From: Haloquadratum walsbyi J07HQW2
GTDB taxonomy: Archaea > Halobacteriota > Halobacteria > Halobacteriales > Haloferacaceae
Assembly (NCBI RefSeq): GCF_000415985.1
Contig: NZ_KE356561.1
Location: 763,043 to 797,620, forward strand
DNA length: 34,578 bases
Reading direction: 5' to 3'
The notes below the pieces were generated by a model. It searched no databases. It was given only the letters and a program-made list of their open reading frames with translations, and was not told the origin of the DNA. The position numbers and the translations under genes are program-made. Positions 7,063-34,569 of the stretch are shown here, in pieces (within the stretch, counting starts at the first letter, position 1; every line of letters begins with the position of its first letter).

Positions 7063-8603
7063 TTAGATATAGCTTCTCAAGATAGCAACCAGTTGCAGCA
7101 ATATGATATGGATTCGTATGAAATATTCCACCAATTCGTGTCGATTAACATCCTCCATCCGCCTGAAGGCGGAGGAATCCCACGGCACCACACCACTGCG
7201 CTCCGCTGGATTGGGATCTGAGAGTTTGCAGTCTACTTGTTCCCTCGGTGAGAATCCGTGGGACAACTCATGAAGATAGACTGCTGGCTGTGCCAACCAG
7301 CCGGTACTCCTGTGTCCACACAAATCGGGTGCAGACTCGGAGTTGCGTTCGTTGATATCGAGACGGATATTCTCCGCTCCCGCTCCATTCACGTCCGCAT
7401 TGAACGCGGCCTCACACTCCTCGCAGACGGACAGACCACAGTCAACACGTCACGCTGACTCTCGTCTTCTCTCCCTCTCCCACACATACAACACGTCATG
7501 TCTTGCTCGTGTCGCGCTCAGACACTTCGATGCCTTTCACTTTCGCCTTGTATGTGAGAATCTTGCTGAAGCGACCGAACACCCACGCCCACCCGTGCAG
7601 ATCAACATTAAGATTCCCGTGCTTCCCCCAGTTCTTCGACTTGCCGTTCTCATCCTCACGGACGCCTTCCAAGTCTCCGACAGTGATTTGACTAACTCCC
7701 TTCTCAACACATCGTGAAGCGATGTGTTTCGCTATGGAGTGGAAAAAGTGCGTACGGCGTTCTGACCACTCCACTTCTTGTGTAATTTGGTGGCTCGGGT
7801 CCCACCAGCATCGTCGCAGGTGGCGATCTCCTGTGGGAAGGAGTAACCGTCCCGTCCTGTTTCAGGCGGTTGCCGGGGTACAGGTACAGGTCCAGGTTAG
7901 CGTCTTCTGTACCATAGGCGACAGCAACGAAGTTACTGATGCCAAGATCGATGCCTGCTGTCTTGTTGCCGGGTGCGGTGGGTATCTCGATGTCGTCCTT
8001 GCAGACGAGGTGTACCTCCCACCGCTCTTTCTGCTGGTCGGAGACGACCCTGACTTATTGTAGGTTTTTAACCTCTACGCCAGGGCGTGGCTCGTATTCG
8101 ACAAGGATGTACTCGCATGCGTTCGGGTTCGGGTGTTCCTTGTGAGTCGCGCCCTGTGAGAGTCGAATACGGTTGTTCTTGGTGTCGTGTTTGAAGCCGT
8201 TTTGTTTCCACGTCACCGTACCGTACTGCGCGGATGTTCCTCGTGGACACGACGACCCTCGTCGTCGGAGTAGTTTTCTTTGCGGTAGTCGGGCGGATTG
8301 TCTCGGTCGTCTTCCGAGGAGTACCACGACACGAGTTGAAGCTTTCAGCGAGTTCCTCCAGAACCCGCTGACTGGACTGTGAGTGCAGTCGCTTGTAGGT
8401 TGGGAGATCTTCAACTCGCGTTTCAACTCTTCGTGATCAGGAATCTCGCCCGTCTCTTCCGAGACCTCGCGGGAGCGGGAGTAGTAGTGATAGTTGGCGA
8501 CGTTCCAGAGTTTGCTGGCGCTCCACCCGTGACGGTCAAGAGACTCTGCAACCTGTGGGTGGTTACGGACTTTCGCTTGATGGGTGCGGTGGATCTACAG
8601 CAT
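7063..8603 (-). pseudogene. tnpB: Decayed TnpB (IS1341-type) gene
   Basis: Reading the minus strand from the ATG at 8603 gives recognisable TnpB pieces in order. These are an N-terminal stretch with RHGWSASKLWNVANYH; a middle part with WKQNGFKHDTKNNRIRLS; RuvC-I with AGIDLGISN (near 7950); RuvC-II with QITVGDLEGV; two zinc-knuckle pairs (CCMC and CEEC, near 7400-7480); and RuvC-III with FNADVNGA. The gene is dead: the third codon is TAG, a TAA interrupts it near 8055, and at least three frame changes are needed to join the pieces. The RuvC-II site has Gly where many TnpBs have the catalytic Glu. The last open frame runs to 7063, past the likely element end at about 7140, so its final 25 or so codons are flank. 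Confidence 0.85.
7150..7182 (-). ncRNA. 3'-end hairpin of tnpB element (candidate omega-RNA scaffold)
   Basis: A perfect 6-bp stem (TCCGCC/GGCGGA, 7158-7163 with 7168-7173) closes a TGAA loop inside the 3' end of the tnpB relic. In IS200/IS605 elements this position holds the subterminal hairpin and the sense-overlapping / omega-RNA. Whether this dead copy is transcribed is unknown. Confidence 0.45.
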
Positions 8604-21214: not shown

Positions 21215-21282
21215 AACAAATCCTGATCATGAGGTAGTATATCAATAATTTGAAAGTTAGTTAGTATTGTAGATATTCGAGG

Positions 21283-21955
21283 AGAATCCCTGCGACTTGA
21301 GCCGCAGGACAGGATAGGATAGGATAGGATGAATCCGACAACCGGGCGACTATCCAACTCCAACTTCAACTTCGATGACCACTCTGAGAGTTCTCATCAG
21401 TCGTGGTAGTAGTCGTGTTAATTAGTGGGCGACCCTCGAAATGCGTAGGAAACAGGCGAGACCAGAGTGATTGTGCCGTAGTCCGACGATGGCGGTCAGC
21501 CGCCCCAAGCCAAGCAACCAAGCAGTAATCGAACCCACTCTGGTGACCGGTCGGGTCGGTGTCGGGTCCGAGACTGACCCGATGCAGTGCAGTGCCCTGC
21601 CCTGCCCTGCCCGACTGCTGGCAAGTACTTCCAAGTCTGTCGAAGTCTGCTGGAGTTCCCGAGGCAAACCAAACCCACCTCTGGAAGCCCATATCCGACC
21701 GAAGATACGAGAGGAGTCCAGTCCCGGGGGGCGGGGCTTTGGCTTGGCACTCCCAGCGCCAGCAGTCCAGTCCTGTCCCACTACACTCCACTCTCCCCGC
21801 CACAGTCCGCGAACCCTGCACAGATTCTCACCATGTCAGGGTTCGGTGGGGTGGGGTGGCATGGGATTGAACTGCAACCCTGCAATCTCCTCTCCACTGC
21901 TTTTGCTTACGCTCAGGATTCCTCCGAGTTCACGCAGAGGAGGATGTCAATCTAA
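21283..21955. repeat. GC-rich island with 5-base periodicity; possible mobile-element relic
   Basis: This stretch of about 670 bases is far richer in G+C than its surroundings and full of short tandem duplications of unit 5. Examples are (AGGAT)x4 at 21311-21330, GCAGTx2 then GCCCTx3 at 21584-21608, CCAAGx2 at 21505-21514, CAGTCx2 at 21763-21772 and TGGGGx2 at 21847-21856. It opens with a CCTGCG/CGCAGG inverted repeat (about 21291-21308) and closes with a CCTC...GAGG pair near 21927-21948, like an element with structured ends. Open frames exist on both strands but are low-complexity artefacts, because 5-base units shift the frame. Confidence 0.6.
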
Positions 21956-21977
21956 CTATTGGTATTGATTGACCAGA

Positions 21978-26314: not shown

Positions 26315-27913
<1,599 letters not shown>

Positions 27914-33191: not shown

Positions 33192-33254
33192 AGTGAACTA
33201 CCCTACCCTACTCACTCACCGCTTTCGCGGTTCGCTCCTTGAGGGTAGGGCTTC
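33192..33254 (-). ncRNA. TnpB-element right-end hairpin (candidate omega-RNA)
   Basis: Outer 8-bp stem CCCTACCC (33201-33208) with GGGTAGGG (33243-33250), and inner 5-bp stem ACCGC (33218-33222) with GCGGT (33227-33231), loop TTTC. The tnpB stop codon (33208-33210) lies at the edge of the outer stem, so the last 14 codons are also RNA structure. This is the only copy whose tnpB is intact. Confidence 0.68.
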
Positions 33255-34569
33255 TGTGCTCTCGCATTAGATTTTCTGCTTCTATAGCCAAATTAACGGC
33301 AGTATTTGAAAGTAGTGCATCACGGTGATGACTACCCTCAGAGATACCAGCCTCCACAGACATTGTGTTACTGCTGTACTCGGACTGTCCCAGCCCTAAC
33401 TCTTCCTTCTCAAACTCCACTCCCAATTTCTTTAATCCAAGCTGTTGAACTTCCAAAGACGAATTATAATCTCTATCTACTGTAAATCCACAGCTTGGAC
33501 AGGAATGTTCTCTCACCCATAATGGTTTGTCAGACCCAACACCACACTTCGCACATCGCTTTGTTGTTCCTTCTGGTGGTACTTTCACTATATGACATCC
33601 ATTCTTGTTTCCATGTCGCTCAAATGCTTGGATTGTCGCATACCACGACATTGCGGAGATATTCCGAGCGTTCCTATCCTGCTGAGTCATCGAAGCCACA
33701 TCCAAATCTTCAAGAAACACAGCATCGTATTCTTGCGTGTACCAGCAGGCGAGCTTCTCACGATAATCTTCTCTTCTGTTTCTCAATCTTTCATATGCTC
33801 GTACCAGCGACTGTCGGGCTTTATTCCAGTTCTCGGATTCGTATTGCTTGCGAGAAAGTGAGCGGTGTCGTCTCTCGACTCGCTCACGGTCTTTCTCCTC
33901 GTCCAGTCGGGCAAACGCCCGATTATCTGAATCGTGAATGAACTTGGTAATACCGAGGTCGATTCCAACAGTATCCTCTATAGAAATATTCTCGACAGTG
34001 GGCTTTTCTGGATAGTCAGCGTCGTATTTGACCACAATACTTACTGTCCAGTCGCCCGTTTTCTGCTTTTTGAGTATAACCTCAGTAATTTTAGCGTTTT
34101 GATTTTGTTTGGTTGGGAGTGGTCGATGGTAGTCCAAGTTGAAATTACCAATCTTCGAGAGGTTCACGATAGCGTGACCATCCTGACCCGTGTTATTATC
34201 CACGTCAAAGCCAGACTGGTTGTACTTTATGCTACGGTATTCTCGTGGTGATTTCCACTTGAGACGACCAACATCGAATCCACGTTCTTCGAGCGAGTCG
34301 AGGACACTTTCGCTATTTTTGATACGGCGAACTGCCATTTGAAGGCATTTTGAGTACACTCCTTTCCACTCAGACCATTCTCGCTTCCATTTGGGAAGCA
34401 TATTCTGCATCGTGTTATAAGACGGTTTGTTATGATCTGGTGCAGGTCTGTACTCTTGTGTGAGTGCGTGATTGTATACCTCTCGACAAGTCTGAATGGC
34501 ATTCCAAGCACTCTCAGCAGTAGTGGTGTCCTCTGGCACTGCTCGATATTGGAACGCTTCTTTTACCAC
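33208..34569 (-). CDS. tnpB: RNA-guided nuclease TnpB, apparently intact
   Basis: This 453-residue TnpB is the ancestor type of Cas12: a nuclease that uses an RNA from its own 3' end as guide. The N-terminal helical/wedge region (1-195, with CREVYNHAL) is followed by RuvC-I GIDLGI (Asp204), a long helix (RRHRSLSRKQYESENW), RuvC-II VFLEDLDV (Glu287), four zinc Cys (339, 342, 357, 360) and RuvC-III DRDYNSS (Asp367). All catalytic residues are present. The C-terminal 80 residues overlap the right-end hairpin. The start is a GTG at 34569, but the frame is open to the window edge, so a few N-terminal residues may be missing. No tnpA is seen. Confidence 0.92.
   Translation of the reverse strand: MVKEAFQYRAVPEDTTTAESAWNAIQTCREVYNHALTQEYRPAPDHNKPSYNTMQNMLPKWKREWSEWKGVYSKCLQMAVRRIKNSESVLDSLEERGFDVGRLKWKSPREYRSIKYNQSGFDVDNNTGQDGHAIVNLSKIGNFNLDYHRPLPTKQNQNAKITEVILKKQKTGDWTVSIVVKYDADYPEKPTVENISIEDTVGIDLGITKFIHDSDNRAFARLDEEKDRERVERRHRSLSRKQYESENWNKARQSLVRAYERLRNRREDYREKLACWYTQEYDAVFLEDLDVASMTQQDRNARNISAMSWYATIQAFERHGNKNGCHIVKVPPEGTTKRCAKCGVGSDKPLWVREHSCPSCGFTVDRDYNSSLEVQQLGLKKLGVEFEKEELGLGQSEYSSNTMSVEAGISEGSHHRDALLSNTAVNLAIEAENLMREHRSPTLKERTAKAVSE

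Follow-up and report, generated by a model that had tools for sequence, protein, structure and literature searches.

A GC-rich island with a five-base rhythm

The DNA considered here (the window) is a stretch of 34,578 nucleotides from the archaeon Haloquadratum walsbyi J07HQW2. Its positions 21283–21955 had been singled out in a preliminary description as a GC-rich island in AT-richer DNA, pervaded by a five-base periodicity, and both parts of this description hold. The GC content of the island is 56–58%, compared with ~43–48% in the flanking DNA, and its match fraction at lag 5 is 0.358, compared with 0.256 ± 0.017 in dinucleotide shuffles (z = 6.0, a value reached by 0 of 2000 shuffles), so the excess over shuffled sequence on which the description had staked its case is present. 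Lag-5 runs of at least five account for 46 positions of the island against 0.79 expected (reached, again, by 0 of 2000 shuffles), and the excess persists at z = 4.5 when the AGGAT and GCCCT arrays are collapsed. The rest of the window, scanned as 673-bp stretches, contains nothing near the island's lag-5 level. The signal is accompanied by an echo at lag 10 and by a weaker signal at lag 6 (z = 2.5), and the unit is therefore better described as five, sometimes six, bases.

The 5-mer arrays named earlier were recovered by Tandem Repeats Finder and by alignment of related copies: AGGAT at 21306–21330 (+ strand), with five units here and a unit number that differs among copies, and GCCCT at 21593–21612 (+), inserted inside the RNA discussed below. 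To these can be added a GGTGG array at 21845–21859, taken from the tandem-repeat listing, and, from the preliminary description, the in-phase pentamers CAGTC/CACTA at 21763–21797 (+), 5-bp units that likewise differ among copies. The earlier assertion that the island is non-coding is upheld: we reject protein coding because the tested ORFs of the island contain no convincing protein family and because gaps between copies favour lengths of 5 and 6, not multiples of three. Clear protein homology across the island, listed at the outset as evidence that would count against the description, was not found.

The island belongs to a family of dispersed elements

A search of the organism's own genome (3,594,539 bp in one contig) with the island returned 72 places, ranging from near-full-length copies 80% identical to it to matches of one end only. 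Eleven full-length copies can be aligned end to end, and the element is one of ~25 copies in this genome (25 matches to R2, the covariance model built from the 5′ half of the RNA introduced below). Alignments of 25 copies place the boundaries of the whole element, which is an inflated copy of 680 bp, at 21271–21950 (+). The structured and precise ends reported previously are thus real as structures, being subterminal palindromes, while the limits of 21283 and 21955 are to be replaced by those just given.

Directly before the element stands TTAT in 22 of the 25 aligned copies; the corresponding target-site position in the window, defined from the 5′ flanks of the same copies, reads TTGT (21267–21270, +). 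No target duplication was detected, the 5′ flank not being repeated after the right end in any of the 25 aligned copies, and inverted terminal repeats are absent, the start AGATATTC and the end GATGTCAA not being complementary. A palindrome common to all copies, in the window CCTGCG…CGCAGG (21289–21308, +), sits ~18 bp inside the left end and is kept and covarying in 28 copies (pairs 1–20). The right end (21909–21950, +) consists of a CCTCC…GGAGG hairpin followed by the terminal GATGTCAA and is again common to all copies; it is shared with TnpB-bearing elements and occurs also 3′ of TnpB relics. The palindromes and the TTAT flank, combined with the lack of inverted repeats and of a target duplication, lead us to assign the element to the IS200/IS605 type and, within it, to the PATEs. 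Judged from its sequence, the segment 21271–21950 is a putative non-autonomous element of this kind carrying an omega-RNA-like RNA.

PATEs are palindrome-associated transposable elements of Haloquadratum walsbyi, and the accessible passages of the paper by Dyall-Smith et al. 2011 (PMC3119063) characterize them as non-coding and usually degenerate. In the features that could be compared with those passages, the predicted element agrees with them throughout: it lacks inverted terminal repeats and a target duplication, has near-terminal palindromes related to those of IS605-type transposons and a short conserved terminal oligonucleotide, carries no transposase gene (and is too short for one), and exists in many diverged copies. 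It departs from them in having a specific RNA interior, the same passages describing no conserved RNA, and in extending to many other haloarchaeal genera. The statement in the preliminary description that no family like it was known can therefore be replaced by a definite placement, as far as those passages go: the element is a PATE with an omega-RNA-like scaffold that is a relative of the Rfam family RF02656. The mini-element also proposed there is borne out by a family of copies sharing both ends.

The suggested search of haloarchaeal genomes found copies with defined ends both in the own genome and in several families. Compact relatives of ~500 bp are present in several haloarchaeal families, over which the interior of the element is 66–88% conserved, and 78 of 292 genomes of the class match at E ≤ 1e-12, some of these through no more than the right end. 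The copy number and the spread of the element family lead us to infer that it is, or has been, mobile. A genome of the same genus (G012) has a very high load, with 45 matches to the 5′ module and 82 to the 3′ module in 3.3 Mb. At six loci (L159, L163, L165, L175, L176 and L177) this RNA interior is joined to another left end (GGCGCAATACCACGG..CCGTGG..GCGCC), so that transposon left ends of two types have become associated with the RNA module.

A conserved RNA with and without tnpB

A consensus structure of 145 pairs, 48 of them changed on both sides, was obtained from 28 copies. An alignment of 16 sequences over the 3′ half has 95.7% of its cells paired and 62 double changes, compared with 16.6 in shuffles and 2–13 when the partner strand is slid. 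The 5′ half is 95.4% paired, compared with 24–52% in slid controls; it is more conserved than the 3′ half, and with conservation being so high its covariation is modest (double changes in 7 of 25 pairs). A compact copy folds better than its shuffles (z = −4.4), as does the island (z = −3.1). The compact relatives are thus predicted to fold into a conserved, covarying RNA of ~500 nt. In the window, the 5′ module lies at 21427–21599 (+; model R2, cmsearch 52.9 bits, E = 3.8e-11) and the 3′ module, an omega-RNA/sotRNA scaffold disrupted by tandem units, at 21624–21854 (+; R1, the covariance model of the 3′ half, 65.1 bits, E = 3.1e-16). The latter score is low, 65 bits compared with about 200.

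When the island itself was searched against Rfam, no known RNA family was found and sot0042 was not among the matches, but four compact relatives do match sot0042 (RF02656), the best with E = 1.8e-10 over the full length of the model; its 44.9 bits are below the curated Rfam cut-off of 88 bits. The family sot0042 is the transcript that overlaps, in sense orientation, the tnpB genes of haloarchaeal IS1341-type elements, and RNAs of this sort are today considered to be TnpB omega-RNAs (PMC12558985). The 3′ half is accordingly homologous to the haloarchaeal TnpB omega-RNA: its alignment covers sot0042 in full, both RNAs stop at the same right-end hairpin, and the flank would serve as guide. The island-type RNA differs in not overlapping tnpB, the place of which is taken by the 5′ RNA module, in having an extended internal hairpin, and in staying below the Rfam gathering score. 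Because both the curated score and adjacency to tnpB fail, the putative TnpB-less RNA is not filed here as sot0042.

Sites immediately 3′ of tnpB are recovered by model R1 as well, in many cases at a distance of exactly 9 or 19 bp from the match to the TnpB domain. Among the TnpB matches listed, the R1 matches of the own genome are preceded by R2 in 22 cases, by TnpB in 23, by both in none and by neither in 10, and the corresponding numbers for eight further genomes are 25, 36, 0 and 7. Pooling the nine genomes gives, among the TnpB matches listed, 47 omega-RNA-like matches with the 5′ module, 59 after tnpB and none with both, so that tnpB lies directly upstream of 0 of the 47 module-bearing matches; these counts are to be read with R1 recovering only sufficiently similar TnpB-linked RNAs, as it was trained on the TnpB-less form. 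Most module-bearing copies have no TnpB within 2 kb. The matched scaffold, measured in the eight further genomes, is ~174 nt in the TnpB-less form, reflecting the extended hairpin, and ~123 nt in the TnpB-linked one. The mutual exclusion of R2 and TnpB points to one guide-RNA scaffold existing in two architectures, with the 5′ module belonging to the TnpB-less one; the 5′ half is thus a predicted conserved RNA module that, among the TnpB matches listed, is found only without TnpB. No description of the long TnpB-less form was found in the openly readable literature.

These results bear on the reading of the element as an ordinary PATE, i.e. a dead element derived by internal deletion from a TnpB element, with a functionless RNA, kept merely as DNA that TnpA can move. 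PATEs arising by core deletion are documented in Haloquadratum, according to the accessible passages of PMC3119063, and the inflated window copy with its low R1 score would suit such an origin. The interior conserved over several haloarchaeal families with strong covariation, and a specific 5′ module that is never beside tnpB among the TnpB matches listed, are difficult to reconcile with it. As dead DNA is not expected to stay so conserved, we regard this explanation as improbable.

Several other identities were considered for the island or its relatives. A tRNA/tmRNA search of the island was negative, and its matches to IMES-5, snoRNAs and CRISPR repeats were discarded as being at chance level; a weak HgcC match of the compact copies was mostly due to the right-end hairpin. 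An IStron or intron was rejected, the compact copies having no match to group I or II introns, and so was a TnpB relic in the 5′ half, since tblastn with the TnpB proteins of the same genome detected nothing inside the element copies. Among RNAs of related systems, the reRNA of the ISDra2 TnpB, ~150 nt long and overlapping tnpB (PMC8612924), likewise comes from the right end of an IS200/IS605 element and has a flank-derived guide, as would be predicted for the island family, which differs in lacking a protein gene and in an RNA of ~500 nt. The HEARO (IscB omega-RNA) is likewise large and structured and is carried by an IS605-like element; neither the island nor the compact copies match the HEARO model of Rfam, and the island RNA, at the right end, resembles the TnpB type.

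Origin of the five-base rhythm

In the 11 copies from the own genome, five-bp tandem units number 62 against 5.4 expected and six-bp units 27 against 1.2, and 20 copies from other genomes contain one five-bp unit (7.8 expected) and one six-bp unit, counts that are not independent over related copies. The window copy alone has 14 five-bp units against 0.5 expected. Gaps of more than four bases between the own-genome copies peak at lengths 5 (103, of which 77 repeat the neighbouring sequence) and 6 (87, of which 39 do), with 24 each at lengths 7 and 8. Compared with a compact reference, 176 bases of the window copy are additional, and 162 of these are in tandem context (151 in 5-bp and 11 in 6-bp units), which fits the slippage-type product that was among the possibilities raised in the preliminary description. 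Slippage is most simply invoked as the mechanism of the 5- and 6-bp duplications.

Readings close to the other possibilities raised there, in which the island would be a satellite of pentanucleotides or DNA under selection for a period of half a helical turn, with no relation to an RNA, would find some comfort in the strong lag-5 signal and its lag-10 echo. They are already contradicted, and we deem them barely credible: the compact copies are essentially without 5-bp repeats, the units are not the same sequence everywhere, and those of 6 bp are in excess too. The core is the conserved ~500-nt RNA, no single unit runs through the copies as it would in a satellite, and selection on the helical turn is rejected because the period is missing from the compact copies.

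In a 400-kb sample of the own genome, the two other places richest in such units are the 16S–23S rRNA spacer and an unrelated non-coding region. The spacer has nine five-bp units in the own genome against 0.6 expected, 3–6 in two sister genomes and 0–4 in the other haloarchaea tested. In the own genome it lies at ~2222045–2222760 and abounds in tandem units of 5 and 6 bp (TGTAT, CTATA, GTCCGT). The non-coding region at ~616400–618600 includes, besides many 5-bp tandem units, a duplicated segment of ~1.1 kb. TnpB relic loci display little pentamer excess (43 compared with 31), and a general slippage bias alone is for this reason insufficient to account for the denser non-coding stretches. Since the spacer shares the rhythm and the compact copies do not, we consider it a habit of the untranslated DNA of the genus, not a feature of the element. 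The periodicity is thus secondary in our reading, a conserved RNA having been later inflated by tandem duplications.

Could the pentamers instead be scars of staggered double-strand breaks that were filled in and rejoined, with TnpB as a possible agent? TnpB cuts 15–21 bp from its target motif and leaves 5′ overhangs (PMC8612924), the fill-in of an overhang duplicates exactly its length, and the element is related to TnpB. The occurrence of the same units in the rRNA spacer and in the unrelated non-coding region, the meagre enrichment of the TnpB relic loci and the fact that many units form multi-copy arrays, as slippage would produce, make this highly unlikely in our view.

A possible mode of existence of the element

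We hold it highly probable that the locus represents a degenerate, omega-RNA-only element of the IS200/IS605 type overlaid by a lineage-specific habit of 5–6 bp duplications. The end structure, the copy family, the covarying RNA, the omega-RNA homology of the 3′ half, the absence of tnpB and the mutual exclusion of the 5′ module and tnpB are directly supported. We give about even weight to a broader proposition, that there is a widespread haloarchaeal class of protein-less elements in which tnpB was replaced by a 5′ RNA domain, yielding a stand-alone guide RNA of ~500 nt that uses the TnpB and TnpA of other elements in trans, and that Haloquadratum has, besides, an unusual habit of duplicating 5 bp in tandem in its untranslated DNA.

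For its movement, an intact copy would depend on a Y1 transposase (TnpA) that is supplied in trans and acts on the end hairpins. The transcript of the copy would be processed to an omega-RNA, with the DNA 3′ of the right end providing the guide, and loaded on TnpB made elsewhere in the genome; TnpB might then cut next to the TTAT motif at the donor site left empty, which would favour retention of the element. The last ~16 nt of a TnpB reRNA derive from the flank (PMC8612924), and by analogy the candidate guide flank in the window, if the RNA is read as an omega-RNA, is 21951–21970 (+). In parallel, the untranslated DNA of the genus would gain tandem duplications of 5 (and 6) bp, ~160 such bases having presumably been added to the window copy. 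This copy looks worn out and inactive, as tandem units break its scaffold. Both partners that would act in trans exist in the own genome, which has 116 TnpB-domain matches, several of them inside frames longer than 400 aa, together with 11 matches to TnpA.

Cas12 traces its ancestry to TnpB and its guide RNA. If the broader proposition is true, a guide RNA was kept while the nuclease gene was lost and an RNA domain gained, which would show a separation of guide and nuclease, a step also needed for the origin of CRISPR. The 5-bp duplication habit, if confirmed, would mark one archaeal genus with a clear mutational signature.

The window contains further traces of TnpB elements. An apparently intact TnpB ORF of 453 aa with a nuclease domain, a possible partner in trans, lies at 33208–34569 (−), and a TnpB-domain match at 26517–27874 (−) adjoins two TnpA (Y1) fragments, the remains of a TnpA–TnpB element. 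At 7228–7347 (−) and 7445–7579 (−), a second omega-RNA-like match (50 bits) and, upstream of it, a weak TnpB-domain remnant form a putative decayed TnpB element.
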